Below are positions 1,566 through 14,143 of a stretch of 64,000 nucleotides of DNA, one piece after another (within the stretch, counting starts at the first letter, position 1; every line of letters starts with the position of its first letter). Origin of the DNA: Rhodospirillaceae bacterium bin65 (GTDB taxonomy: Bacteria > Pseudomonadota > Alphaproteobacteria > Bin65); assembly GCA_002238725.1 (NCBI GenBank), contig MPMX01000004.1, positions 1 through 64,000 of the forward strand, in the 5' to 3' direction. The notes beneath the pieces were generated by a model, which saw only the letters and a list, made by a program, of their open reading frames with translations, had not been told where the DNA came from and searched no databases. Position numbers and translations under genes: made by a program.

Positions 1566-1642
1566 GGCCCCGTAGCTCAGCTGGATAGAGCACCGGCCTT
1601 CTAAGCCGACGGTCGCAGGTTCGAGTCCTGCCGGGGTCGCCA
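1566..1642 (+). tRNA. tRNA-Arg (anticodon TCT)
   Basis: A 77-base cloverleaf with encoded CCA. The acceptor GGCCCCG pairs with CGGGGTC (one G-U), the D arm contains AGCTCAGCTGGATAGAG, the anticodon loop CTTCTAA gives TCT, and the T arm is GCAGG-TTCGAGT-CCTGC. The last 17 bases are duplicated at 11489-11505, so its 3' end is the integration site of the adjoining element. The gene itself stays intact after integration. Confidence 0.95.
1626..1642 (+). other. Attachment site, tRNA-side copy
   Basis: The 17-bp core TCCTGCCGGGGTCGCCA forms the last bases of tRNA-Arg, including its CCA. It matches 11489-11505 exactly. Bases just before it (GTTC, three mismatches, TCC) also partly match the other copy. 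The integrase gene ends 33 bases away, the usual arrangement. Confidence 0.9.
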
Positions 1643-1674
1643 GACTTCCGAATTGAGCCTTTGTTTTCATAGAC

Positions 1675-2760
1675 TTAATCGGAGGTTGGACAAACCAGCC
1701 GCGGGCGGTTGGTCAAACCTGTTCCGCCTTCGTCCAGCTTTGCCATGCCGGCGTCGGTCAGTTTCGACCGGTTCGCGGCGGCGGTGTAGCGGGACGCTTC
1801 CTTGGCGCTGCTATGCGCTAGAAACGCCATGATCTCGAATTCTGTGGCGCCGGCTTCGGCGAGGCGACGTGCGCCGGCCTTGCGCAGGCCGTGGATGCTG
1901 CAATGGGCGGGCAGTCCCGCGTCGGCGACGCACTGCCGGAACCAGTTGCCGAAGCCGGCGACCGAAAAGGCGCGGCCATCGTTGCCGGTACTCACGATCA
2001 CCATCTGCTTCATCGGCAGGACGGCTAGTTCCCGCGCCAGTTCCTTCAAGATCGGCAGGTCGGTCTCCTGTCCGGTCTTGCCCCTGCGATAGCAGATGCG
2101 GTTGCCCCGGATGTTGCCGCGGGTCATGCGGGCGGCGTCCTGCCGGGCCGCCCCGGTGTTCAGTACCAGTTCGAACGCCAGCCGCGCCTTCGATCCGGTC
2201 GGGTGTGCGTCCCGATAGGTCGCGATCTCTTCGTCGGTCCATGTGTGGTAGCCGCTCGACTTGACCTTGTGCGGGTCTGCGAGCGTCGCCGGGTTCGGTT
2301 CCTTGAAGCCGAACCGCTTGGCCGCGAAGTCGAACAGTTGCCGCAGGTCTTTGCGAAGCCGGTTGGCCGCTTCCGGGCCGCCCTTGCGCTCCATAAGGGT
2401 CTCAATATGGCGCGGCTGCATCGTGGCATACCGGCCCTGCCCGATGTTCTCGCGTATCCAGTCGAGCCGCTGGCGCTTCGTTGTCCGGGTCGACTCGGCG
2501 AGATTGCGATAGGCAGCCGTGCGCAGGTAGGTCGAAATCAAGAAGGCGAAGGTGCCGGGTGCCGCCTGTGGCGAACAGGCCAGCGCTTTGTCGATCTCCT
2601 GCTCATAGGATTCGCGGAATTCAGCAGAGCCGCGCGGAGACGGCAGGTAGACATCGATCTTCACGCCGTTGATCGTCCTGCGGAGCCGCAGCCGCGGCTT
2701 CCCGTGGCGATCGCGCACTTCTGCGACGCCCGGATATGGGTTGCGGTAAGGGGTACTCAT
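1675..2760 (-). CDS. Tyrosine site-specific recombinase (element integrase)
   Basis: This 361-residue phage-type tyrosine recombinase would integrate and excise the element at tRNA-Arg. The N-terminal third carries a core-binding region (TFAFLISTYLRTAAY...). The catalytic part shows NTGAARQD for the first Arg, HGLRK for the His-Arg box, AHSS for the second His, and ASRYTAA for the nucleophilic Tyr near residue 330. The start overlaps the previous gene's stop (ATGA) with GGGAGG just upstream, so it is translationally coupled. Its 3' end lies beside the att core and contains two arm-site-like repeats. The first-Arg motif GAARQD differs from the common GLRRSE but is within family variation. Confidence 0.95.
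   Translation of the reverse strand: MSTPYRNPYPGVAEVRDRHGKPRLRLRRTINGVKIDVYLPSPRGSAEFRESYEQEIDKALACSPQAAPGTFAFLISTYLRTAAYRNLAESTRTTKRQRLDWIRENIGQGRYATMQPRHIETLMERKGGPEAANRLRKDLRQLFDFAAKRFGFKEPNPATLADPHKVKSSGYHTWTDEEIATYRDAHPTGSKARLAFELVLNTGAARQDAARMTRGNIRGNRICYRRGKTGQETDLPILKELARELAVLPMKQMVIVSTGNDGRAFSVAGFGNWFRQCVADAGLPAHCSIHGLRKAGARRLAEAGATEFEIMAFLAHSSAKEASRYTAAANRSKLTDAGMAKLDEGGTGLTNRPRLVCPTSD
1684..1719. repeat. Candidate integrase arm-type sites, left
   Basis: Two directly repeated 13-mers, GGTTGGACAAACC (1684-1696) and GGTTGGTCAAACC (1707-1719), lie 42-77 bases inside the tRNA-side att core. The same motif occurs twice at the other end of the element (11395, 11447) and I did not notice it elsewhere. 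They fall in the last codons of the integrase gene. Direct repeats inside both att cores are the usual layout of arm-binding sites. Confidence 0.65.
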
Positions 2761-2951
2761 TTAGCCCTCCCGACAATTTCGTCCCAATCGTCGCCGGCCT
2801 CGGCTTCGCTCACCTTGCCGGCGACAATCCGGAATTTTGCCCCGTCGGATTGCTCGACCTCGACCTGCCAGTCCTGCACCCCTGCGGCGCGCATTGCCTT
2901 GGCTACCCGCGTGAGGTCGGCTTGGGTGACGGGTGATCGTCGACGGGGCAT
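2757..2951 (-). CDS. Small hypothetical protein of the element (64 residues)
   Basis: A 64-residue protein starting MPRRRSPVTQ, with a basic N-terminus, a helix-forming TQADLTRVAKAMRAAG segment and an acidic C-terminus (EAGDDWDE). I do not recognise a named family. Its start overlaps the stop of the regulator upstream (TGATG), and its own stop overlaps the integrase start (ATGA), so the three genes are coupled. Size and position, between a wHTH regulator and an integrase, would suit an excisionase-like accessory factor. That is inference from context only. Confidence 0.75.
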   Translation of the reverse strand: MPRRRSPVTQADLTRVAKAMRAAGVQDWQVEVEQSDGAKFRIVAGKVSEAEAGDDWDEIVGRAK

Positions 2952-3346
2952 CAGTCTGCCGGCCCGGCGACTTCTTCGAATCGCACCAGCGGTTCCGGAT
3001 GCAGAACAGCGTAGGTCAGGCCGCCCCGGCGGTCTTCGTTTGCGACGAACGTGACGTGCGCTTCTGAACGCATCTGTTCGAGTCTTTCGGAGTCGGGTGC
3101 ACCCCAGTATTCGACGCAGGAATTCAGCCGGTAGAGGCGGACCTCCTTTTCGGAGAATGCGACGGTGAACGCTGTCTCGATTCGGTCGGCGCGAGCGGCG
3201 GCGCGCACCGCAGGCTCGCTCTTGCCGAATAACGCTGCAGCGCCGGCCGGCGTGACAAGTTCGGCTCCGATTACTACGGCCTGTCGGCGCGCGGCGTCTT
3301 GCCGTTCCCGTTCGTGCGCAAGTCGAATTTCTAAGGTTGACGACAT
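2951..3346 (-). CDS. AlpA/excisionase-like winged-helix regulator
   Basis: A 131-residue protein. Residues about 30-80 (LVTPAGAAALFGKSEP..., ending RLYRLNSCVEYWG) have the helix-turn-helix plus wing layout of MerR/AlpA/excisionase-type domains. The start was chosen at MSSTLEIRL because GGAG lies 7-8 bases upstream; eleven upstream codons lack such a site. It is first in a coupled trio with the 64-residue protein and integrase. A promoter overlapping a CAATCG-N4-CGATTG palindrome lies just upstream, so autoregulation is plausible. In phage satellites AlpA-type proteins control integrase and excision; that role here is inferred. Confidence 0.7.
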   Translation of the reverse strand: MSSTLEIRLAHERERQDAARRQAVVIGAELVTPAGAAALFGKSEPAVRAAARADRIETAFTVAFSEKEVRLYRLNSCVEYWGAPDSERLEQMRSEAHVTFVANEDRRGGLTYAVLHPEPLVRFEEVAGPAD

Positions 3347-3367
3347 TTTTCGCTCCACTTTTCCCGG

Positions 3368-3396
3368 AAGATATGACAATCGCTAACGATTGACAA
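3368..3396 (-). promoter_or_regulatory. Promoter with overlapping operator for the regulator-integrase genes
   Basis: On the minus strand, TTGTCA (3391-3396) and TATCTT (3368-3373) are separated by 17 bases and lie about 20 bases before the regulator start. The spacer holds a perfect inverted repeat CAATCG-CTAA-CGATTG (3377-3392). A related half-site, CTAGCGGTTGACC (3400-3412), repeats CTAACGATTGACA (3383-3395) with three mismatches, 17 bases away. A repressor bound here would block the promoter. Confidence 0.6.
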
Positions 3397-3563
3397 GCCC
3401 TAGCGGTTGACCCCCCTCCAAGCCGAAAATGCGCTGATTTGGCGTTCACCTCCAATCGAAGCCGGAAACCAGAATTTCCACCCTTGTCCCGCGCGCGCCG
3501 GGGGCGGCGGCGTTATCCTCGCAAATCGTCAATCCGAAAAATTCTGCCGCGTTGCAGAATTTC

Positions 3564-4061
3564 TCAAAACGGCACGTCCAGGTCCGGGACCGGGTTCGGC
3601 GTGCGGTAGCCCTTCGATCCGCCGTCGCCTTCGCCCTCCGCTCCGCCGCCGCCGTCGCCTCTTGCGAAGCAAGTGTAGCAGAGAACCCGGCGGCGCTGGG
3701 TCGGCTGGAACGCCCTAGCGCAGTTCGCGCATGGCCGCGCGGGGCGGGTCCGGTCGGGCCGGTCGATTGTCCAGCCGAGATTCGATTCGTCGCCGTGCGA
3801 GCGGTGTTCGGCGGCCGGGCGCATGGGCGCGCGCGGCGTCCGGCGCATTTCGCCGGCGCGGCGCGCGGCCTCGGCGGCCTCGGGCGACCCGCGGTAGTGG
3901 GGTTCGGCGCGACTGTACCACGCCAGCGCTTCGACAATTTCGGCGGGCGTCATGTTCCAGCGCTCGGCGGCTTCGTCCAGCGTCACGCGGAAAAGATCGC
4001 GCTTGATTGCCGTCGCCTTGGCGAGAGCGAATATCAGGTCGTCGGGATCAATCGCCGTCAT
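3564..4061 (-). CDS. Phage protein with helix-turn-helix-like N-terminus and zinc ribbon
   Basis: A 165-residue protein. The N-terminal part (VTLDEAAERWNMTPAEI...) reads like a three-helix segment. About residues 110-133 contain CANC and CYTC spaced like a zinc ribbon (CxxC-x14-CxxC). The C-terminus is Gly- and Pro-rich and probably disordered. The start overlaps the portal gene's end by 14 bases, so it is the last gene of the head operon. It is followed by about 170 bases without a gene and then the promoter of the regulator. Family unknown to me; it could be a late regulator or a structural accessory protein. Confidence 0.7.
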   Translation of the reverse strand: MTAIDPDDLIFALAKATAIKRDLFRVTLDEAAERWNMTPAEIVEALAWYSRAEPHYRGSPEAAEAARRAGEMRRTPRAPMRPAAEHRSHGDESNLGWTIDRPDRTRPARPCANCARAFQPTQRRRVLCYTCFARGDGGGGAEGEGDGGSKGYRTPNPVPDLDVPF

Positions 4062-5121
4062 CGGCCAGCAGGCCGGCCGTGACAAGCGCCTCGTTCACGG
4101 CGACACCGCCGGCGACAAGTTTCTGGAAGGCCTGGGCGCGGCCGGCAAGGTCCATCGGGTAGTTATCGAATCGCAGTTTGACCGGCGACGCCAGCTTCGC
4201 CTCGAGTTCGGCCTCGAGCGCCCGGGCGAGCGGCAGGACCGTTCCCAGGTGCCACCGCCGGATCGCCTCACGCTGCGCCGTGCCGTCCGCCGGGGCGAAC
4301 AGGTCCGGCGGCGTCCCGGTCGCGGCCAGGGTCGGGAGAAAGGCTTGGTCGGCGAGTTTTACCAGTGCTTCGGTTGGCGCCGGGCCGAGTCGTGCTGGAG
4401 ACCAGTCGCGGGCCGGGGCGCCGGCCTTGCCTTCACCGTATCCCGATTGCGTCGATTCCATCAAAAGGGCCTTGCCCTTCGCGGCGGCAATCGACGCGCG
4501 CAGCGTCGCCAGCGGGTCGCCGTCATCGTCATCGTCGGAATCCTGTCCTTCCGGGTAGGTCAGCAGCTGGGCCACAGGCCCACCGGATTCGTCCGCCAAT
4601 GCCCGCTCCGCATTGGCGCCCAGGCGCGCGGTTGTGTGCGCCCAATCGACGGGCGCGGTTCCGGCGTAAGGCTGGCCGGGCGTGCTGCCCCAGGTGACGA
4701 AGACGACTCCGGTCGCCGGCAGGTTCCAGGTTGTGCTTGTCGATGGCCCGTAGGCCGTCGCGCGAACGGTCCAGGTCGCCGGGTCGTGCGATCCTTCCCA
4801 GTGCCAGCTTGAACACGGAATCAGCTTCACCCGGTCGCCGGCGAGGCGCAGGACGTGCAGGGAACTTCCCCTGCGAAGAATATCACGCCCAATCTGTCCA
4901 AGGACGGCCCGAGAGACGGCGGAACGCACCCAGGGCGCCCCTTCGACCGTCGCGCCCATAAACGCCCGTGAGAGCGCCCCGCTGGCAGCCTCAACGGCCG
5001 CCGTGGACGAAGAGTCCGCCGCCGACCCGGCGGCTTGCGCCTCGATCAGCTGGACAACCGCGTCGGAAAAGTCGCCGCCCGACTGGCGGGCTTCGGGCTT
5101 CGGCTGCCACGGCCAGCGCAT
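4048..5121 (-). CDS. Phage portal protein (HK97-like)
   Basis: A 357-residue portal protein, the dodecameric channel through which DNA enters the capsid. Residues include the typical WVRSAVSRAVLGQIGRD region near the start, a central SWHWEG-type segment, the AAKGKALLMES stretch, and the C-terminal REAIRRWHLGTVLPLARALE and DNYPMDLAGRAQAFQKLV regions that characterise HK97-type portals. It begins one base after the connector gene's stop. Start MRWPWQPKPE was chosen over an upstream ATG because it matches portal N-termini. Slightly shorter than many portals (about 400) but no key region is obviously missing. Confidence 0.85.
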   Translation of the reverse strand: MRWPWQPKPEARQSGGDFSDAVVQLIEAQAAGSAADSSSTAAVEAASGALSRAFMGATVEGAPWVRSAVSRAVLGQIGRDILRRGSSLHVLRLAGDRVKLIPCSSWHWEGSHDPATWTVRATAYGPSTSTTWNLPATGVVFVTWGSTPGQPYAGTAPVDWAHTTARLGANAERALADESGGPVAQLLTYPEGQDSDDDDDGDPLATLRASIAAAKGKALLMESTQSGYGEGKAGAPARDWSPARLGPAPTEALVKLADQAFLPTLAATGTPPDLFAPADGTAQREAIRRWHLGTVLPLARALEAELEAKLASPVKLRFDNYPMDLAGRAQAFQKLVAGGVAVNEALVTAGLLADDGD

Positions 5122-5122
5122 G

Positions 5123-5428
5123 TCAGGCCGCCCCGGCGCGGCGCACGCGCCATGCCGCCAAAAGCCCCTTGGCGCCACTGGCGCGCATGGCGCCGGTCAT
5201 GGACGGCGTGTAATCCGCCGACAGCGGCCCGGCCGCGCGGGACCGCTGGCCGGCGGCGGGCGCCTGTGCGATCCAGCCCGAGCAACGCAGGATTGCCTCT
5301 TCCTTGACGGAATCGGGCGCGGAAGGCGCGTATTTTTCAACCAGCGCCGTCACGGCCGCCAGGACCGACGCGGCGCGCGCGGCGGGCAGGCCGGTCGCGG
5401 CGGCGATATCGGCAGCGGTTAAAGCCAT
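5123..5428 (-). CDS. Head-tail connector (gp6-like) protein
   Basis: A 101-residue, largely alpha-helical protein. It opens MALTAADIAAATGLP and has an AVTALVEKYAPSAPDSVKEEAILRC helix, then GWIAQAP and a short basic tail. This is the layout of phage gp6-like head-tail connectors, which bind under the portal and prepare the head for tail joining. It overlaps the protease gene by 10 bases and precedes the portal gene by one base. A connector in an element without tail genes implies heads made to accept tails from another phage. Confidence 0.7.
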   Translation of the reverse strand: MALTAADIAAATGLPAARAASVLAAVTALVEKYAPSAPDSVKEEAILRCSGWIAQAPAAGQRSRAAGPLSADYTPSMTGAMRASGAKGLLAAWRVRRAGAA

Positions 5429-5898
5429 CGGGGCGTGCGCCGGCCGGCGGCGCGCGTGCGGACTTCGACGGCGCTGGCCGGATAGGCCGGATCGTCCACC
5501 AGCGCCGCCGCGGCCAGGGCGGCCTTGCGGATCAGGCGGACACCGCCGCGCATGGTTTCGTCCTGGGCCCGGAATTCGACGGACAGGCCGCGGAATGTCC
5601 CGTTCCTAACCATCGTCGCCGCGTCGCGGCCGCGCTGCGTATCCGGCAGCGCCGCGTCTATCACAACCTTGCCGTCGCGCGCTTCGGGCCGGAAGCGCAT
5701 TAGCGGGGCCTGCCGGTTGTGCTGTTCGTTCAGGATAATCCCGCCCTCCGGCCAGGACAGGCTGCCGGCGGCGAACATCTCCGGCCGGTCGCCGGCCCGC
5801 GTTTCGTATTCCATCAGCGTGCCGACAATCCGGCCCGGCGACTGGCGGGACTCGTCCGCCCGAAATTCGATGGCGCAGCGCAGTTCCAGCACCGTCAT
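5419..5898 (-). CDS. HK97-type prohead protease
   Basis: This 159-residue serine protease would cleave scaffold or delta-domain segments during capsid maturation. Visible are the GTLMEYETRAG strand, ILNEQHNRQAPLMRF with the catalytic His at residue 60, and the NGTFRGLSVEF block with the catalytic Ser at residue 106. Length fits the family (150-220). The start codon overlaps the stop of the P-loop gene upstream (ATGA), and the C-terminus overlaps the connector gene. In the commonest HK97 order the protease lies directly before the capsid gene; here two genes separate them and the order is reversed. Confidence 0.9.
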   Translation of the reverse strand: MTVLELRCAIEFRADESRQSPGRIVGTLMEYETRAGDRPEMFAAGSLSWPEGGIILNEQHNRQAPLMRFRPEARDGKVVIDAALPDTQRGRDAATMVRNGTFRGLSVEFRAQDETMRGGVRLIRKAALAAAALVDDPAYPASAVEVRTRAAGRRTPRWL

Positions 5899-6332
5899 TT
5901 TCTCCCGTACCAGCGTTGAATCGCGCCGTCGCACTCTGGCGACAAGGCGCCGTCCATCGGGTCCGCCAGCCGGGCGCGCACGATATCTTCGCCCGGATCG
6001 ACAATCCGCTCGGTCGCGCCCTCGCCAAGCTGCGCCAGCAGGAATTGCCGGCGGTCCAGGTCGCCGTCGCTGTTGGTCGCGATGATGCCGATCTCCCGCT
6101 GCACCGCGCCCGTTATGACGGCCCGGCGGACATACTCGGCAAGCGGCAGCAGGTCGTCGCTTTCGGGCCGCACCGGATAGCGGCCGTCCGGGCCGCGCTC
6201 TACCAGCGTAAGCGCGGCATAGATCGCCTGAAAATCGGCGACGGCCCGTAGATTCGGGTTGTCCCGAAGCATCTGCCGGGCGAGCGCCGACTTGGCCGCC
6301 CCGGCCGGGCCTGACAGCAGCAGGTTGGTCAC
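5895..6332 (-). CDS. Small P-loop NTPase/kinase-like protein inside the head operon
   Basis: A 145-residue protein starting directly with a Walker A motif, LLLSGPAGAAKSALARQML (GPAGAAKS at residues 8-15), then DFQAIYAAL, a VITGAVQREIGIIATNSDGD strand possibly acting as Walker B, and a basic C-terminus. It resembles small nucleoside or polynucleotide kinase-like P-loop folds rather than a packaging ATPase. It overlaps the preceding unknown gene and the protease by 4 bases each, so it is a fixed part of the operon. Role unknown; possibilities are DNA-end repair or nucleotide handling during packaging. The substitution of Ala for Gly before Lys is unusual. Confidence 0.75.
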   Translation of the reverse strand: MTNLLLSGPAGAAKSALARQMLRDNPNLRAVADFQAIYAALTLVERGPDGRYPVRPESDDLLPLAEYVRRAVITGAVQREIGIIATNSDGDLDRRQFLLAQLGEGATERIVDPGEDIVRARLADPMDGALSPECDGAIQRWYGRK

Positions 6333-6649
6333 TGAACCTCCGGTTCAACCAGCAGCGTCGCGACGTCGCTGGCGCGGGTCGTCCAGAACCACCAAGGGCC
6401 GGCTCCAGGGCCGACGGCGGCCGGATATTCGCGGAACCGCCGGCGCTCATAGCGCGTCATCCGGGATCCCATCACAGTCAGTGGATCCGGGGCGGCGGCG
6501 GCCCGGACAACGCGGACGGACACCGGGCCGGCGTTTTCGATGATGCCGACCCAGAGCAGAACAAAGTCGGTTTTCGCCAGCGCGTCGGCGGTAATCCCGA
6601 GCCCGTCAGCCAGCCGGGTTGGCGTCGATGTAACCCTGATGATTGTCAT
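6329..6649 (-). CDS. Hypothetical head-operon protein (106 residues)
   Basis: A 106-residue protein beginning MTIIRVTSTPTRLADGL, with beta-strand-like segments (FVLLWVGIIENAG, VSVRVVRAA) and a Trp-rich WWFWTTRASD near the C-terminus. It lies 12 bases after the capsid gene and overlaps the P-loop gene by 4. I recognise no family. The beta-rich composition and position after the capsid gene would suit a capsid decoration or head-completion protein; that is a guess from position. Confidence 0.65.
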   Translation of the reverse strand: MTIIRVTSTPTRLADGLGITADALAKTDFVLLWVGIIENAGPVSVRVVRAAAAPDPLTVMGSRMTRYERRRFREYPAAVGPGAGPWWFWTTRASDVATLLVEPEVQ

Positions 6650-6661
6650 GCCGGGCCACCG

Positions 6662-7957
6662 TCAGGCCGCGACGCGGAACGCGATCTGTTTATACGCGGC
6701 GGGTTGCTGGAGCACGATATCGCCGGCCAGAATGTGCATCGTGAAAGCGCGCTGGCCGCTGGCCGACAGCGAGTAGATATCGTCGATTCCGATCTCGTTC
6801 CATATCGGCAGGGTCGCGGTGCGGATACCGCCGTCATTCTCGAATTCGGACATGCCCGTTCGGTAGAGGATCGCCTGCTGGATGTTGGAAGCCGGGTCCG
6901 GCATTCGCGCGTTGGTCCACCAGGCCATCGCGCCGAAATTCGCCATCGCGTAGTCGGCAAATGCTTTCTGGCCGCGGTCGTCGGTCCCGTCGCGGAAAGA
7001 GCGCGTCGACAGTGCGTAGGTCTCCGCGCCGCACACGATTGAAATTTCCTGCATTTTCGAGGCCCACAGGCCGTCAATGCCGGCGGCAAAGCCGGCCACA
7101 AAATCGTCGAAGGCGGCAACGTCCGAGCCGGGCGCGTCCGGGTCGGTCAGGGCTTGGAAGAGGCCCGTCAGGCTCGGGGCCTGTCCGTCGCCATTCAGGG
7201 CCTGAAAATCAAGCTGGGCCGTGAGCGCAAGCGCCAGATTTTCTCGGATCGCCGTTTCGAAGGTCTCGGTTCCGACCGCGGCAACGTCCTCGATGGCGAT
7301 CTCCATGCGCGCGGAAATTCGTTTGGGCGTGCTGGTCGAGACCGTGAAGCCGGCGGCCGTCGCCACCGCACTGGCGCCCTTGGCAAGCGCCGCCGCCGTC
7401 AACGCTTGGGAGATAGTGGCGGAGGCGTAGGAACCACTCGGGACTCGGGGCATGGCGATCCCGAGCCGCGGGCAGACCGACCGGGCGAAAATCTGCGGCC
7501 GGATCGCGTCCAGGTTGACTCCGACCGTGTCCGGTGCATCGGTCACGGCGCGCTTTTCCGGCGCCGGCGGCCGTTCCCAAAGCTCCAGGGGAATCTTGCC
7601 GGGCGTCGTCTTGGCGGCGGCGGCGAGCTCGGCTTCGGCGCCCTGTATCTGATGGCCCTCCAGCCGGGCCAGCAGGAACGCGCCGACCCGGCACTTGCTG
7701 CGCAGCTCCAGCCGCTCGCGCATTTCCGCGTCGGGCGTCGCCTCGCGGGTCTCGTTTTCCTTGTCCGCCTCGATATCGACCGCCGCCTGTGCCGCCCTTA
7801 GCTGGCGCTCCAGGTCCGGCGTGCCGGTCTCGATCTTGTCCATTTCGGCGCGCTGTTCGTCGTCCAGGCTTTCGACGCGGGACAGTTCGGCCATCCGGCC
7901 GCGTTCTTGGGACTGACGCTCGCGGAGTTCACGCAGGCGGCGCTGGGCTTCGGTCAT
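6662..7957 (-). CDS. HK97-family major capsid protein
   Basis: A 431-residue capsid protein. Residues 1-75 form a charged coiled-coil delta domain (RLRELRERQSQERGRMAELS...) that is normally removed by the protease. The remainder shows the HK97 fold order: an N-arm and RPQIFARSVCPRLG region, SAVATAAGFTVSTSTPKRISARMEIAIE for the E-loop and spine helix, then SLTGLF and a C-terminal A-domain with GDIVLQQPAAYKQIAFRVAA. No scaffold gene is needed in this family. It has its own leader spacing of about 37 bases after the HNH gene. Length and domain order are complete. Confidence 0.9.
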   Translation of the reverse strand: MTEAQRRLRELRERQSQERGRMAELSRVESLDDEQRAEMDKIETGTPDLERQLRAAQAAVDIEADKENETREATPDAEMRERLELRSKCRVGAFLLARLEGHQIQGAEAELAAAAKTTPGKIPLELWERPPAPEKRAVTDAPDTVGVNLDAIRPQIFARSVCPRLGIAMPRVPSGSYASATISQALTAAALAKGASAVATAAGFTVSTSTPKRISARMEIAIEDVAAVGTETFETAIRENLALALTAQLDFQALNGDGQAPSLTGLFQALTDPDAPGSDVAAFDDFVAGFAAGIDGLWASKMQEISIVCGAETYALSTRSFRDGTDDRGQKAFADYAMANFGAMAWWTNARMPDPASNIQQAILYRTGMSEFENDGGIRTATLPIWNEIGIDDIYSLSASGQRAFTMHILAGDIVLQQPAAYKQIAFRVAA

Positions 7958-7994
7958 CGGGCGGAACCTTTCGTTTTGCTACGGTTCCGCTAAT

Positions 7995-8390
7995 TCACAC
8001 CTTTCCGCCGTTGTCAATTTTACTCGGCATAAGCGCGTCGACCAGCGCCCGCCACTCGGCTTCGGCCTCTGTCTGGGGCCGGCGGTTGTCGTCACGATGT
8101 CGCTCAACGTGACAGGACCGACAGTAGGTCTTGATGCCGTCCAGGTCGTAGGGATCGCGGCCCGGCTGCAGCGGCGGCTCATGGTGCGCTTCCAGGCGTC
8201 CGGGGCGCCCGCAAGCGGTGCAGCGGTAGCCGTCGCGCTCGAAAGCGGGCCGGCGGGGCGCCCGGCCTTGGCTCCCAGTGCAGCGGCCGGGGCCCCCGCA
8301 AGCGGTGAAGCGGTAGCCGTCGCGCTCGAAAGCGGCCGGGCGGGTCGCCTGCCATTGCTTCCAGTGCAGGCGGGCGTGATTCGCGCTCAT
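7995..8390 (-). CDS. HNH endonuclease with internal duplication
   Basis: A 131-residue HNH nuclease. In cos-type phages such proteins work with the large terminase in DNA cleavage and packaging. The zinc and catalytic residues CTAC (57-60), EAHHEP (His69, His70) and CRSCH (90-94) are present. Residues 17-36 and 46-65 repeat each other (AFERDGYR.TACG.PGR); only the second copy keeps CTAC. On DNA the repeat is 8208-8248 and 8295-8335, 87 bases apart and in frame. The start overlaps the terminase stop. The first copy could be a non-functional tandem duplication. Confidence 0.85.
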   Translation of the reverse strand: MSANHARLHWKQWQATRPAAFERDGYRFTACGGPGRCTGSQGRAPRRPAFERDGYRCTACGRPGRLEAHHEPPLQPGRDPYDLDGIKTYCRSCHVERHRDDNRRPQTEAEAEWRALVDALMPSKIDNGGKV

Positions 8391-9889
8391 CCGGCCAGCA
8401 CGAAGCGGGGGCGCCGCCGGCGGCGGGGCGGGTCGCGATACCCTGCCGACACGGCCAGGATTGCGGCGGCGGCGGAATCGTCCTTCGCGCGGGACCGGCG
8501 CCCGCCCTCGGTCTTTTTCGCCAGCTTGGCGTTGCCGGCCGGATCGGAAACGGTGCGGGCTTCGGCCATCGCGGCGCGAAGCAGCAGCGACCGGCGCGGC
8601 GTCACCTTGCCTTCGGCGCACGCGCGGCGGAAGGCGCGCACGTCTTCGGCGCCGTCCTTGAAGCCTTGTCCCCGAAAGATCAGCGCCGCGGGCGGCACAC
8701 CGGCAGCGTCAAGCGCGTCGCGAAGCTCGGCTTCGCGCCAGCGGTCTGCGACCACGGCGGCCGGCCGGCCGAACCGCTCCAGCGCGGCCAGCAGTAGCGA
8801 CTCGACATTGACGGCCGCGCCGCCGGTCTGGATCAATTCGCCCCGGCGCGCGCATTCCCGATACAGGCCGGCGACGCCATCGCGCACGCCGCGCTCGGCA
8901 AGGCTCGGCTCGCCAGGGAACGCCGCCAGGGCGTCCAGCGCGCCGGTTTCCGGCGCGTAGCAGGCAACCGCCGATTGGGCGCTGGACGTGCCCAGGTCGA
9001 CGCCCCAAACGGTCGGGCCGTCGCGTTCGGCCTCCCCTTCGATGGTGCGCCACAGGCCCGCGTCCAGCAGCGTCGCGACGCCCGTTTCGTCGGTCCCGAG
9101 ATTCAGCCTTAGCGCCTCGAATTGCGCCAGCAGCGCCGGGTCGCGTCGCGCCGCCTTCGCCTCGGTCGCGATGGCGTCCAGCAGGTCCGGCATATGGGGC
9201 AGCGACGGGTTCGCCTTGCGCCATGTTCGGCGCTGAAATTTGGGGTCGTCCGGCCGGGCGGCGTGCGCCTGTGCGTAGTCGGCCGCGCCGGCCAGCATCT
9301 TCGAAAACCAATGCGCCTCATCGGCCGGGCGCGTGCCGAGCGCCACGAAACGGGAATGCGGCTGCTTCCCGGCGGCCGTCGCCAGCGCCGCGACCATCCT
9401 TTCGCCGGTCGCCGGCGGCCACTGTGCCGGTTCGTCCGCCAGGACCAGCACCGGGGCGAGGCCGTGCGCCCGCCGCGGATCGCTGCCCAGGCAGCGCGCG
9501 CGGGCGCCGGTGCGGCGATCTTCGATCCGGGCCTGTTGGGCGGTATCCCACACGCGCCACCGGGCCTTATCGTCCAGCTTGCCGCCCATGAAGGCGATGA
9601 CGTGTTCGAAGGCGATCCGGGCTTGCTCGAAGCTGGACGCCACGATCACCGTTTCGCCCCGCGGCACGGCGAGCGGCCCGTCCAGGGTCGCCGCGGCAAT
9701 CCCGGACAGCAGCGCCGTCTTGCCGTTCCCCCGCGCGATCGACAGGGCGGCGGACTGGACGCGATCGGCGAAGGCGCCGCGGATAAAGCGGCGCTGCCAG
9801 GGCAGGACGCAGAAAGGCTCGCCGGCCCGGCGCCCTTGCGAGACGGTCAGGCCGGCGAGATAGAGGACCAGGTCACGCGGCGTGGCCAT
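8387..9889 (-). CDS. Phage terminase large subunit (HK97-type)
   Basis: A 500-residue ATP-driven DNA-packaging motor with a nuclease domain. Walker A is ARGNGKT (about residue 50), Walker B LVLADEP (about 140), and the C-terminal nuclease begins VWGVDLGTSSAQSA with acidic residues at ADRWREAELRD and AKDDSAAAAIL. Start MATPRDLVLY was chosen because it fits the family N-terminus; the eight upstream codons overlap the previous gene. It is followed immediately by the HNH gene, the usual pairing for cos packaging. Both catalytic halves look intact. Confidence 0.9.
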   Translation of the reverse strand: MATPRDLVLYLAGLTVSQGRRAGEPFCVLPWQRRFIRGAFADRVQSAALSIARGNGKTALLSGIAAATLDGPLAVPRGETVIVASSFEQARIAFEHVIAFMGGKLDDKARWRVWDTAQQARIEDRRTGARARCLGSDPRRAHGLAPVLVLADEPAQWPPATGERMVAALATAAGKQPHSRFVALGTRPADEAHWFSKMLAGAADYAQAHAARPDDPKFQRRTWRKANPSLPHMPDLLDAIATEAKAARRDPALLAQFEALRLNLGTDETGVATLLDAGLWRTIEGEAERDGPTVWGVDLGTSSAQSAVACYAPETGALDALAAFPGEPSLAERGVRDGVAGLYRECARRGELIQTGGAAVNVESLLLAALERFGRPAAVVADRWREAELRDALDAAGVPPAALIFRGQGFKDGAEDVRAFRRACAEGKVTPRRSLLLRAAMAEARTVSDPAGNAKLAKKTEGGRRSRAKDDSAAAAILAVSAGYRDPPRRRRRPRFVLAG

Positions 9890-10058
9890 TGATGATCCTG
9901 TCGAGAAACCCAACGCTGTACTCGTCCAGCGGGTCGGTTTCGTGAATAGCGGACATAGCCAGCAAGGCGCGCATCCGCTCGGTCGCGGTCGCCGATTTGT
10001 CTTGGGCGATTTCCGTCAAGATTTTCTGCATGGTGAGTTTTGTCGTGCTTTCGGACAT
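9873..10058 (-). CDS. Small protein before the large terminase (possible small-terminase role)
   Basis: A 61-residue helical protein (MSESTTKLTMQKILTEIAQD...). It ends 17 bases inside the large terminase start, where a small terminase normally lies. It is much shorter than usual TerS (100-180 residues) and I cannot recognise the family. The segment TERMRALLAMSAIHE could be a DNA-binding helix pair. A competing 99-residue frame on the same strand reads as low-complexity shadow. Functional guess rests on position. Confidence 0.6.
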   Translation of the reverse strand: MSESTTKLTMQKILTEIAQDKSATATERMRALLAMSAIHETDPLDEYSVGFLDRIINGHAA

Positions 10059-10142
10059 TGCAGTTTCCTTTCAGGGTTGTGTTCATGGAGTTCGGCACTA
10101 CCCGCTCCGGTTTGGGCCGGATTCCGGGTTTCGGCGGTGCCA

Positions 10143-10622
10143 TCATTCAACGTCCCCGCCGTCCACTTTGGCGCTGATGTGGCCGATCAGCGCCGGACCT
10201 TCCGCGCCGATCAGCAGCCGGCCAGCGCCGGGCGTGCCGGCCTTGCGCGCTTCCTGCTGTTCGCCGACCGGCGGGCCGGGCGCGTGTTCGTAGCTGCGCA
10301 CCAGCGCCGCCTTCGCGCCCCGGGCGCCGGCCTCGATGACGGCCTTCGACGGCGCGCCCTTGCCCTTGCCGCCTTCGGCCGCGATGGCGCCGGTCATCGC
10401 CTTGCCCATCGCCGGCAGGGCCGCCCGGAAGGCGGGGCGCTCCGGCAAGGGCGCGCCGCCCTCCCCCTTGCTGCCGTATTCATGCAGCCGGGCAATCGCC
10501 GCGACGTGCGGCTCATGGAACCCGATCTCGGCAACCGTGCCGTCCAGGGCGGCGGCGCGCGTGCGCAGGTCCGCCATCTTCCGCTTGAATTTCTTGCCGC
10601 CTCGCACGCCGCCGGCCGTCAT
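10143..10622 (-). CDS. HK97 gp10-like neck/tail-completion protein
   Basis: A 159-residue protein with a basic N-terminus (MTAGGVRGGKKFKRK) and the segment AAIARLHEYGSKGEGG...LPERPAFRAALP. That ARLHEYG...G..IP.RPFFR-like pattern is shared by phage gp10-like and virion-morphogenesis neck proteins. The C-terminus keeps RKAGTPGAGRLLIGAEGPALIGHISAKV, the typical substrate-linked end of that family. It overlaps the previous gene by one base (TGATG). It is the only structural gene upstream of terminase here, an unusual place for it. Confidence 0.65.
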   Translation of the reverse strand: MTAGGVRGGKKFKRKMADLRTRAAALDGTVAEIGFHEPHVAAIARLHEYGSKGEGGAPLPERPAFRAALPAMGKAMTGAIAAEGGKGKGAPSKAVIEAGARGAKAALVRSYEHAPGPPVGEQQEARKAGTPGAGRLLIGAEGPALIGHISAKVDGGDVE

Positions 10623-10933
10623 CAGTGCACCGCCTCGCCGGGCGGGGCGACTTCCGCGCCCTTGGCTTCGGCCGGAAGACCGTGCAGGCGGGCGTCCCAA
10701 ATGCTCGTCCGCGTTCCGTCCGGGTTTTCCATCGTCACCCATACCGGGCGGCCCGCTTGTCGGGCCGTCAAGGACGCGAAGGCGGTGCAGGCCGTCTGGA
10801 TATCGGCGCCGGCCTTCGCCAGCGCGATCCCGGCGAACCACGCCGCCTTGTCGACGCCCTCCAGGTCGTCCGGCATGGCGCGCCAGGCCTTCGCGATCAG
10901 GCGCTCGGCTCGGTCAGTGTCGGGATTGGTCAT
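10622..10933 (-). CDS. Hypothetical protein, first gene of the element's operon
   Basis: A 103-residue protein (MTNPDTDRAERLIAKAWRAM...). It has a helical first half and TARQAGRPVWVTMENPDGTRTSIWDARLHGL in the second. I recognise no family. It lies first in the minus-strand block and its stop overlaps the next start. A longer frame extends to 11038, but the start after an untranslatable-looking basic stretch was preferred. Possibly a head-completion partner of the gp10-like protein or an early regulator; there is no direct evidence for either. Confidence 0.55.
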   Translation of the reverse strand: MTNPDTDRAERLIAKAWRAMPDDLEGVDKAAWFAGIALAKAGADIQTACTAFASLTARQAGRPVWVTMENPDGTRTSIWDARLHGLPAEAKGAEVAPPGEAVH

Positions 10934-11488
10934 GGTCTTCAATCCGGGTTTGTGCTTAAGGGCTTTCGGCTCTTGCCAGCGGGCGGGCAGACTCCTAGAC
11001 TTTCCGCCTGTGTGTGTGTCCCGGCAGGTCCACTTCACAGCCGCCTGACAGAGGCGGACCGCCAGTTCGGCGGCGCGTACTCGGTGGTTTCCTCGCCGCT
11101 ACCCTGCGGCGTACCCGGAGAGCCCGGAGAGGCGCCCGAAAGCCTCGGGACGCATCACGGTGGGATGTCAGCCCATGCTCTCCGGGCCCTGGGCGGTCAC
11201 CCGCCAGCGTGTGTTGCTAGAGTTGTTCCACAAAACAGGCACCGGGTCGCAAGTCCGCCATGCCATCGGCGGGGGTAGGTACAGCGTTGCCCGGATTTGC
11301 GCCTCGATCCGCGACGATCTTGGCTGCCCGCGATTTGTCTGCCGCCACGGGGTAAGGGCGGTGTGCCGGGCGCGTCTCCCGGCCGGGAATATTCGGTTGG
11401 ACAACCCGCCGAATTCTCTTTTACTTTCAAAGGGGCGATTCGGGCCGGTTGGACAACCTATGCTGTTGTTTCGGCGGGAAAGTTCATC
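10934..11488. other. Non-coding end of the element
   Basis: Between the first operon gene and the distal att core I see no convincing gene; frames here are Arg/Pro-rich shadows. It should hold the operon promoter, and if packaging is cos-type it could hold the packaging site, but I cannot point to either. Two arm-site-like 13-mers lie at 11395 and 11447. The last 100 bases become markedly AT-richer. Confidence 0.5.
11395..11459. repeat. Candidate integrase arm-type sites, right
   Basis: GGTTGGACAACCC (11395-11407) and GGTTGGACAACCT (11447-11459) match the two 13-mers at 1684 and 1707 at 10 to 12 of 13 positions. They are 30-95 bases inside the distal att core and in the same direct orientation. 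Presence at both ends only is what arm-type integrase sites would show. Confidence 0.65.
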
Positions 11489-11505
11489 TCCTGCCGGGGT
11501 CGCCA
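11489..11505 (+). other. Attachment site, distal copy
   Basis: Exact second copy of the 17-bp tRNA-Arg 3' end (TCCTGCCGGGGTCGCCA), without the rest of a tRNA. It marks the right boundary of the element. AT-rich host sequence follows at once. Confidence 0.9.
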
Positions 11506-11613
11506 TATTTTCTTATAACAATTTGATTTTAATTATTTTTTTCCGATTTCCCGGAACCGATCCCAGGTGTGAATTTCGGATTGGGGTCTCGAAGCAATGA
11601 TTACGAGGCAGCT

Positions 11614-12903
11614 TTGCAGCAGAAAACGCTTACCGCCGCGCTGACGGCGCTCTGCATGGCGATTGCCGCCCCTGTCCGGGCCGATGCGCCGGCAGGAACA
11701 GCCAAGCCCGAAATTGTCGTCGATGGCGTTCCGTTGCCCGGCGATGTTACCCCGCTGGACCGGGTGCCGCCCGGAATCCCGGTCGACCGGCGCTTTGCCG
11801 GAACCTGGGTCGGGGCGTGGGGCGGCGGCCTCAAGACGATCCTCGCCATCGAATCCATCGAAGCCGACGGCGCGGTTACCTTGATCTATGCCGTCGGCGA
11901 CCACGCCGTGTGGCGGATCAAGCGCGGCTGGTGGCGGTTCGGCGGCCGGATCGAGGGCAAGCAGCTGAGGATCAAGGGTCGGATCACCGAAATCACCTAT
12001 GAACTGGCACCCTCGGGCCGGCTTCTGGCCACCTACGCCCGCAGGAACCAACGCAGCCGGGCGGTCCTGACCCGGCAGAGCTTCGCGGCGCTGCGCGGGC
12101 CCGGCGCAACGGCGCCGTGGACCGGCGGCGAACGGACCTTCCTGAAGACGCGCCTGGTCGAAGACGGTAAGCCAATCCGGCTGGAAACGGTCCTTTTCCG
12201 GCCGGCCGGCAAGGGCCCCTTCCCGCTCGCCGTCGTCAACCACGGCTCGACCGGCCGGGGCGCCGAGCCGCGGCTGTTCCGCCAGACCTTCATCTCGCCC
12301 ATGCTGGCGGAATTCCTGACCCGGCGCGGCTGGCTGGCCGCCTTTCCCCAGCGGCGCGGCCGGGGCCGGTCCGACGGCCTGTACGACGAGGGCTTCTACG
12401 CCGACCGCACCAAGGGCTACACCTGCGAAACGAGGCGGACGCTGGCCGGCGCGGACCGGGCGCTCGCCGATGTCGATGCAGCGATCGCGGCGCTGCAGAA
12501 ACGGCCGGACGTGCGCCCGGGGCCGGTGCTGCTGCTCGGCCAGTCGCGCGGCGGCGCCCTGGCGGTCGCCTATGCCGGACGGCACCCGGAGAAAGTGCGC
12601 GGCGTGATTAATTTCGTCGGCGGCTGGGTCGGCGGCTGCCCCTTTGCCGCCGGGATCAACCGGACGCTGATGAACGGGGGCGCGGCCTTCCCGCGGCTGA
12701 TGCTGTGGCTTTACGGCGAGAAGGACCCGTTCTACACGCTGGCGCATACCCGCGGAAATTTCGAGGCCTTCCTTGCAGCGGGCGGAAAGGGCCGGTTTTT
12801 CGGCTACCGGGTGCCCGGCGGCAACGGTCATGGCGTCATGCAGTTCCCGCGCCTGTGGGCCGGCGAGGTTGACCGCTATCTCGGCGCGTTGAAGGCCAGA
12901 TAA
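11614..12903 (+). CDS. Secreted alpha/beta-hydrolase (dienelactone-hydrolase-like)
   Basis: About 429 residues. An N-terminal signal peptide (QQKTLTAALTALCMAIAAPVR) leads into a beta-rich region (TWVGAWGGGLKTIL...) of about 110 residues. An alpha/beta-hydrolase domain follows, with GSTGRG, GRGRSDG, nucleophile elbow GQSRGG, a late Asp in YGEKDPF, and His in GNGHGVM. The product probably acts in the periplasm on esters. The TTG start at 11614 was chosen because it begins the signal peptide and has ACGAGG 5 bases upstream; the frame opens at a GTG at 11569. It is the first host gene after the integrated element. Confidence 0.8.
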   Translation: MQQKTLTAALTALCMAIAAPVRADAPAGTAKPEIVVDGVPLPGDVTPLDRVPPGIPVDRRFAGTWVGAWGGGLKTILAIESIEADGAVTLIYAVGDHAVWRIKRGWWRFGGRIEGKQLRIKGRITEITYELAPSGRLLATYARRNQRSRAVLTRQSFAALRGPGATAPWTGGERTFLKTRLVEDGKPIRLETVLFRPAGKGPFPLAVVNHGSTGRGAEPRLFRQTFISPMLAEFLTRRGWLAAFPQRRGRGRSDGLYDEGFYADRTKGYTCETRRTLAGADRALADVDAAIAALQKRPDVRPGPVLLLGQSRGGALAVAYAGRHPEKVRGVINFVGGWVGGCPFAAGINRTLMNGGAAFPRLMLWLYGEKDPFYTLAHTRGNFEAFLAAGGKGRFFGYRVPGGNGHGVMQFPRLWAGEVDRYLGALKAR

Positions 12904-12991
12904 GCCGCAACCTGTCGCGTCGAATCCGCCTTACCAATCGTCCCTCTACGGCGTACCAATCCGAACATCGAATAACGGTCGATACGACGCC

Positions 12992-14143
12992 ATGGACCGC
13001 GCAACGGAACTCGAACTGCTGGAAGAACTGGCCGGCCTGCGCGAGGCGCAGTCCTTCTATCTCGACGACGCCGTGACGACTTCGCCGGTCGCCCGCTACA
13101 CCTGCCCGGACCGGTTCACCCGGGAAATGCAGGCGCTGTTCCGCTCGATGCCGGCGGTGGCGGCTCACAGCCGCGAGCTGGCGGGGCCGGACGCCTTCCT
13201 GACCCGCGATCATGCCGGCCTGCCCCTGCTCCTGACCCGCGATTCGGATGGTGGCGCGCACGCCTTCCTCAACGTCTGCCGCCACCGCGGCACCCGGCTG
13301 GTCGGCGCGGCGAGGGGCTGCCGGCGCCGCTTCACCTGTCCCTACCACGCCTGGACCTACGACAACCGCGGCGCACTCACGGGCCTAACCCACGGCGCCG
13401 CCGGCTTTCCCGGCGTCGACCGGGCCGAACTGGGCCTGCAGCGCCTCGGCTGCACGGAAGCCCACGGCTGGATCTGGATCGCGCCCGGCACCGGCGCCGC
13501 ACCGGAAATCGACGGGTTTCTCGGCGGCCTGGCCGGGGATTTCGCCTGGTTCGGCGCGGACGGCCTGCGGATCGTTCACGAGGAGCGCCGGGAATGGGCG
13601 GCGAACTGGAAGATCCTGTATGAGGGCGGCCTCGAATCCTACCATTTCCGCATCGCCCACAAGGACACGATCGGCCCGTTCTTCCAGGACAACCTGTCGA
13701 GCTACCGGATGTTCGGCCGGCATATCCGCTCGATCCTGCCACGCGCGCGGCTCGACGCCGAGATGGCGCTACGGGAGGAAAGCCGGTCGCTGCGCCGGGC
13801 GACCAACCTCGTCTATTCGGTCTTTCCGTCCAGCCAACTGCTTGTCCAGGAGGACCATATCGTCTGGATCCAGGCCCTGCCCCTGGCGCCCGACCTGACC
13901 TCGGTGCGCCTCGCCACCCTCGCGCCGGCGGATACCGATCTTGCCGATCCGGAAACCGTCCGCCACTGGCGCAAGAACCACGACATCACCGTGCGGACCC
14001 TGTCGGAAGACTTCGCCATCGGCGAGAGCATCCAGAGCGGCCTGCTCTCCGGGGCCAACACGAAGCTGCATTTCGGCCGCTTCGAAGGCGCCCTCGACCG
14101 CTTCAACCGGATCGTCGAGCAGGAATTGGCCCGAGCAAGCTGA
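12992..14143 (+). CDS. Rieske [2Fe-2S] aromatic-ring-hydroxylating oxygenase, large subunit
   Basis: A 383-residue oxygenase alpha subunit. The Rieske centre is C96-x-H98 (NVCRHRG) and C116-x2-H119 (CPYHAW). Mononuclear iron ligands are probably H218 and H223 in SYHFRIAH with a late Asp. It hydroxylates or demethylates aromatic or quaternary-ammonium substrates; it resembles the RhfA/CntA-like and benzoate-type alpha subunits without allowing a precise call. No ferredoxin or reductase gene is beside it. A GST, a VOC-family dioxygenase and a flavin hydroxylase follow, which suggests an aromatic breakdown cluster. Confidence 0.9.
   Translation: MDRATELELLEELAGLREAQSFYLDDAVTTSPVARYTCPDRFTREMQALFRSMPAVAAHSRELAGPDAFLTRDHAGLPLLLTRDSDGGAHAFLNVCRHRGTRLVGAARGCRRRFTCPYHAWTYDNRGALTGLTHGAAGFPGVDRAELGLQRLGCTEAHGWIWIAPGTGAAPEIDGFLGGLAGDFAWFGADGLRIVHEERREWAANWKILYEGGLESYHFRIAHKDTIGPFFQDNLSSYRMFGRHIRSILPRARLDAEMALREESRSLRRATNLVYSVFPSSQLLVQEDHIVWIQALPLAPDLTSVRLATLAPADTDLADPETVRHWRKNHDITVRTLSEDFAIGESIQSGLLSGANTKLHFGRFEGALDRFNRIVEQELARAS

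Follow-up and report, generated by a model that had tools for sequence, protein, structure and literature searches.

Within the analysed stretch of Rhodospirillaceae bacterium bin65 (contig MPMX01000004.1, positions 1 to 64,000; the whole 64,000-nucleotide stretch is referred to below as the window), a 9,863-bp one-strand unit has been identified, bracketed by an exact 17-bp repeat of the 3′ end of a tRNA-Arg gene. This unit is quite likely an integrative phage satellite, intact or almost so, that would make a DNA-filled head and a neck of its own and take only a tail from a co-infecting tailed phage. The element probably works like the capsid-forming phage-inducible chromosomal islands (cf-PICIs). 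Together with its relatives it is here called a separate, cross-phylum lineage of capsid-forming phage satellites, that is, a known kind of system in a newly recognised lineage.

Integration site and boundaries

The integration target is the tRNA-Arg (TCT) gene at 1566..1642 on the plus strand, as detected with ARAGORN. The attachment (att) core, TCCTGCCGGGGTCGCCA, is found within the 3′ end of the tRNA (1626-1642) and again at the distal end of the element (11489-11505), and no other pair is present in the window. When 300 sequences of 20 kb were simulated with matched dinucleotide composition, the longest chance match to the tRNA 3′ end was 13 bp, and the att duplication proposed in an earlier, sequence-only reading of the window is thereby confirmed. 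The same tRNA-Arg site is empty in three sister genomes (G001, G003 and G004), in which the gene starting at 12992 in the window follows within about 100-200 bases. A further sister genome, G002, carries directly after the same tRNA-Arg gene a fragment of 88 bp from a related integrase (L061, 4840-4927), which appears to be the trace of an earlier tenant and to indicate that the site has been used before. The window element itself appears to be an insertion made after the split from the sister species.

Just beyond the distal att copy lies an alpha/beta-hydrolase gene (11569-12903). It may be a separate insertion or former cargo, and it is treated as a separate insertion because it is missing at this site in the sister genomes and has no att copy beyond it.

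Gene content of the element

All genes of the element are located on the minus strand, and neighbouring frames overlap slightly. In reading order, they encode a 103-aa protein, a gp10-like neck protein, a 61-aa protein, the terminase large subunit (TerL), an HNH endonuclease, the major capsid protein, a 106-aa protein, a P-loop protein, a prohead protease, a connector-like protein, the portal, a CxxC zinc-finger protein, a putative regulator, a small protein and the integrase.

The packaging and head genes were assigned through hidden Markov model (HMM) scans, with E-values given after the family names. TerL (8387..9889; phrog_9 6e-61, PF20441 3e-7) is adjoined by the HNH endonuclease (7995..8390; phrog_144 3e-11). 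The S78-family prohead protease (5419..5898) is matched by PF04586 (1.6e-6), phrog_80 (2e-12) and TIGR01543 (9e-6, below its cut-off), and the neck or tail-completion protein of the gp10-like type (10143..10622) by phrog_222 (4e-8), the same family being present in the circular contig L073. The tyrosine integrase (1675..2760; PF00589 6e-13, phrog_1 4e-34) is 64% identical to that of a related element in Binatia.

The 357-aa portal of HK97 type (4048..5121; PF04860 8e-4) and the HK97-fold major capsid protein (6662..7957; PF05065 0.003) both fall under the curated HMM cut-offs, and their identities are backed, beyond these weak matches, by a fold search with predicted structures. The AlphaFold2 model of the portal matches portals of gene-transfer agents (GTAs), of HK97 and of other phages (E 2e-7 to 1e-3), and the gene recurs across 18 elements or contigs. 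For the capsid model, 246 PDB chains were matched at E<=0.001, HK97 heads among them, and encapsulins are matched as well; only the fold class is claimed for this protein, because the confidence of the model is low (mean predicted local distance difference test score, pLDDT, 59). The capsid gene is kept in all elements compared, and about 115 residues at the N-terminus of its product are helical and resemble a scaffold. The head-tail connector-like protein (5123..5428) has no HMM match; it is kept in 16 elements or contigs, and in nearly all elements it stands between protease and portal. The set of integrase, portal, connector, protease, capsid, HNH, TerL and neck genes named by the sequence-only reading has thus been recovered, with the connector recognised by its conservation.

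Tail, lysis and CI families were matched by no gene of the element in the HMM scans, and no replication gene was recognised, which bears out the earlier statement that no tail, lysis, replication or CI gene is visible. The one label of that reading that did not hold is the “AlpA-like” regulator: the putative regulator at 2951..3346 has no AlpA, PHROG or NCBIfam match, and a true AlpA is found only in relatives (PF05930, 1e-9, in the C68 element described below).

The remaining genes of the unit are small. A protein of about 64 aa adjoins the integrase (2757..2951), and the Binatia element has, as judged by eye, a similar small open reading frame (ORF) in the corresponding position. The CxxC zinc-finger gene downstream of the portal (3564..4058; zf_Tbcl_2 0.01) is kept in five elements. 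Between capsid and protease lie the genes of the 106-aa protein (6329..6649) and the P-loop protein (5895..6332; AAA_16 0.004); a P-loop protein is encoded at the same position in the distant circular contig L042 (6546-7301; AAA_33 3e-4). The 61-aa protein upstream of TerL (9873..10058), in the place of a small terminase, has no match, and the 103-aa protein is encoded at 10622..10933. The HNH gene contains an in-frame tandem duplication at 8196-8362 (two 80-nt copies with 87-bp spacing, 86% identical) upstream of the HNH motif, and in most relatives the HNH protein is shorter than in the window copy.

Related elements in the same genome, a sister genome and other phyla

Searches of viral and genome contigs with single TerL proteins gave no matches; matches were obtained with alignment-based queries. 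Through the TerL search, two further units were found in the genome of the window and three in one sister genome. All six units carry integrase, TerL, HNH, capsid, protease, connector and portal, and no recognised tail gene is present in them except for one Dit-like protein. Five of the six, including that of the window, end at tRNA genes with att repeats (Arg, Ser, Lys-CTT twice and Lys-TTT), the repeats of the four non-Arg units being exact or imperfect. The same gene set, which according to the sequence-only reading should be sought at other tRNA loci of related genomes, is found at Ser and Lys loci in two genomes.

The genome of the window (G000) holds three elements, on contigs C18 (the window), C68 (L004) and C87 (L005). 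Two of them share a TerL type (82% identity); the third TerL is only 27% identical, yet its portal and capsid are 57-58% identical, which suggests, at the level of sequence, that packaging modules have been swapped. The Dit-like tail protein is encoded in the C68 element (L004 13543-14031; PF21821, 8e-17) and may be a tail-capture part. It was also considered as the trace of a helper, was searched for across its genome and was found in the C68 element alone.

Profile searches added loci in metagenome-assembled genomes (MAGs) titled Binatia, Gemmatimonadetes, Nitrospira, Vicinamibacterales, Gammaproteobacteria and Alphaproteobacteria. The bounded loci have att repeats at tRNA-Glu, tRNA-SeC, tRNA-Leu and tRNA-Lys, and beyond the portal end the sequence continues into host genes. 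Host genes beside the Binatia and Nitrospira elements reach 93% and 89% identity, respectively, to genes of their own relatives, which argues against mis-binning of these contigs; the assignment of the other phyla rests on record titles. Compared to the Binatia element, the identity of the window element is 60% for the capsid, 64% for the integrase and 65% for TerL; the window TerL is 82% identical to that of the C68 element and 75% to that of the Gemmatimonadetes element. Capsids are 45-60% identical across Alphaproteobacteria, Binatia, Gemmatimonadetes and Nitrospira.

These elements of about 10 kb appear, from their sequences, to form a previously unlisted family that spans several bacterial phyla. 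The earlier suggestion of a new lineage in Alphaproteobacteria stands as to the separate lineage and was too narrow as to the hosts. A literature search gave no report of such elements in sponge symbionts, and literature joining PICI, satellite and Alphaproteobacteria yielded only two studies, one on a Streptomyces satellite and one on a Wolbachia plasmid.

Genome size, circular forms and variable parts

The ten integrated copies measure 9.74-11.55 kb, with a mean of 10.45 kb. Exact terminal repeats of 99, 99 and 127 bases, the usual mark of circular assembly, are present in the viral contigs L042, L072 and L073, which close as circles of 9,391, 10,095 and 10,093 bp. Another contig, L021, closes as a circle of 13,577 bp and contains a Tn3-type transposon (9977-13632 and 1-114) with 40-bp inverted repeats and a transposase named by eye; without the transposon, its length is about 9.8 kb. 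The circles carry the head module, accompanied by neck parts or replication genes; genes for a tail tube, a tape measure or lysis were not recognised in them, some small ORFs lying outside the scan. No integrase was recognised in L042, L072 and L073. L042 encodes a plasmid-type replicase and L072 a relative of it. In L072, the connector continues in frame into about 670 aa (3484-5775), a part that is fibre-like by eye and has no family match.

The replication genes differ from copy to copy and comprise a zinc-ribbon primase with AAA_25, a PriCT primase, an O-like initiator, a VapE helicase, a topoisomerase-like protein and a plasmid replicase. The remark of the sequence-only reading that even a primase is lacking is true of the window copy and does not extend to the lineage, as most relatives examined carry some replication gene; the window copy may therefore rely on a helper or on the host. 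The neck parts vary as well (gp10-like, head closure, a neck terminator in L073, Dit-like in the C68 element), and across the elements such interface parts occur without tail tube or tape measure. This variation may reflect heads fitted to different tails.

Selection and probable exchange of modules

When copies are compared, TerL, portal, capsid, protease and integrase give ratios of nonsynonymous to synonymous substitution rates (dN/dS) of about 0.16-0.32, a rough estimate with dS near or above 1, and the core genes appear to be under purifying selection. In the capsid, portal and TerL trees, the alphaproteobacterial copies fall into more than one clade, and the TerL and capsid trees disagree, with long branches in the capsid tree that call for caution. 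The scattering of the alphaproteobacterial copies and the conflict between the TerL and capsid trees point to transfer between phyla and to exchange of modules.

Proposed mode of action and alternative explanations

As a satellite, the element would be induced, packaged and supplied with a tail in dependence on a helper. The integrase would recombine the 17-bp core in tRNA-Arg for insertion and excision, and after entry of a helper the unit would be expressed as a single operon. Assembly of the capsid protein would start from the portal, the N-terminal region of the capsid protein would serve as an internal scaffold, the S78 protease would mature the head, and TerL with the HNH nuclease would cut and package about 10 kb of DNA. 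The connector and the gp10-like neck would then close the head and offer a docking face to the tail of the helper, which would lyse the cell.

Several observations weigh against this reading. No replication gene was recognised in the window copy. The HMM scans gave no small terminase (TerS) match upstream of TerL in the window copy or in several relatives, although a very diverged TerS could escape them; a phrog_866 match seen in the TerS scan (E 0.27) is regarded as chance. No helper was found with the models tried, which would overlook prophage or helper families of other types: nine host genomes, which are incomplete MAGs, lack the tape-measure family PF10145, PF20155 is absent from the genome of the window, and those HK97-type portal matches that could be placed in the nine genomes are these elements themselves. 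A weak neck match on contig C4 of G000 (E 0.003) was rejected as a helper trace, its surroundings not being a prophage.

The absence of a visible helper prophage in the hosts would also fit a self-sufficient minimal or plasmid-like virus, whose head with the neck alone, or with a neck fibre, delivers the DNA without a helper tail. The circular contigs without recognised integrase (L042 with its plasmid-type replicase, L072 and L073) and the fibre-like extension of the L072 connector agree with such a virus. Nonetheless, it is unlikely: the gp10-like, terminator and Dit-like interface genes make most sense with a tail, no lysis gene was recognised, and the extension occurs in one metagenomic contig only. 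Similarly doubtful is a broader proposal, an undescribed cross-phylum family with about 10 kb of double-stranded DNA that makes heads and necks only and exists as tRNA islands and plasmid-like circles, some branches of which have gained an adsorption part of their own and need no helper tail. If true, such a family would contain the smallest tailed-virus-like entities.

The same functional set would be expected of a genuine but diverged member of the cf-PICI family known from Enterobacteriaceae and Firmicutes. In a comparison with a single prototype, the E. coli EDL933 element (NZ_CP008957 1,680,329-1,694,760), taken to be EcCIEDL933 and presumably the cf-PICI prototype, a relation was detected by hhalign for TerL, protease, HNH and integrase (E 1e-8 to 6e-21; protease, TerL and HNH at superfamily level). 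Membership is nevertheless improbable: the portal is only weakly related (hhalign probability 82.6%), and capsid and connector show no sequence relation to the prototype by hhalign. It is because of the missing TerS, the different gene order and the lack of a detectable capsid relation that the elements are called a separate lineage. The proposal of a cf-PICI-like satellite in the sequence-only reading is accordingly strongly supported as a tail-less, capsid-encoding element working like a cf-PICI, and it is not borne out as to membership of that family, for the same reasons and for want of an AlpA match in the window copy.

The head genes of ordinary HK97 type, the lack of a replication gene in the window copy and the broken related integrase at the same tRNA in a sister genome could also be read as signs of an ordinary HK97-type prophage that deletions have reduced to a remnant. 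Against this stand the recurrence of size and gene set across many independent insertions and phyla, the exact att pair, the intact frames under purifying selection and the complete circular relatives. Among 50,697 phage records neither capsid nor portal has a match, the capsid has none among 72,556 plasmid records, the best TerL rows for the phage records reach no more than about 28% identity, and the 13 viral contigs with this TerL are all of 6.3-17.3 kb. A full-length prophage in which tail and lysis genes adjoin this head module, named by the sequence-only reading as the sign of a remnant, was looked for among relatives, phage records and viral contigs and was not found. With no parent phage in any collection searched, a remnant is very improbable and already contradicted.

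Least probable of all is a host-domesticated GTA or nanocompartment packaging host DNA or cargo, for although the portal fold is also GTA-like and the capsid fold also encapsulin-like, the unit is bounded by att sites, was inserted after the split of the sister species, has several unlike copies per genome and has relatives that exist as circles of their own size.

Comparison with known systems

Head-making, tail-borrowing satellites described so far belong to Enterobacteriaceae and Firmicutes groups and to a few Streptomyces phages. A lineage present in several phyla suggests that head-making with tail-borrowing is an old and widespread lifestyle able to cross phyla, because it is the borrowed tail that would determine the cell to be infected. 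TerL, capsid and portal provide sequence markers for finding such elements, and the nearly fixed genome size makes the head volume directly testable.

The cf-PICIs are described as encoding capsid, protease, portal, connectors, both terminase subunits and HNH, with the helper needed for tails only (PMC10690885), and their average size is given as 14 kb (PMC10803314). The elements of the window lineage resemble them in their small size, in the integrase and putative regulator, in their own capsid, head protease, portal and connector, in TerL with HNH, and in the absence of own tail or lysis genes, apart from the Dit-like gene of one relative. As for the pairing of integrase with AlpA, the integrase is present, and AlpA is unmatched in the window and matched in the C68 element. 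The differences relate to (i) the size of about 10 kb; (ii) the hosts (Alphaproteobacteria, Binatia, Gemmatimonadetes and Nitrospira), outside the groups listed for cf-PICIs; (iii) TerS, a part of the cf-PICI set that was not recognised in the window element; (iv) the head proteins, of which capsid and connector show no relation and the portal a weak one to those of the EDL933 prototype, the one cf-PICI compared; and (v) the gene order, which is TerL-HNH-capsid-protease-connector-portal in the window lineage and capsid-protease-portal-closure-connector-HNH-TerS-TerL in the EDL933 element.

The Streptomyces phage satellites MulchRoom and MiniFlayer likewise have their own capsid and packaging genes and include integrating and non-integrating forms. 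By their description (PMC10690885), they differ in having linear genomes with direct terminal repeats, virulent actinophage helpers, a scaffolding gene and TerS. The marine bacterial satellites, namely phage-inducible chromosomal minimalist islands (PICMIs), tycheposons and virion-encapsidated integrative mobile elements (VEIMEs), are also small and mostly integrative; PICMIs are described as having no identifiable packaging genes (PMC10803314), and tycheposons and VEIMEs were compared by description. HK97-type siphophages share with the window element TerL (28% identical), portal, protease and the capsid fold. In contrast to the elements described here, they are full phages of about 36-42 kb, which carry tails and lysis genes.

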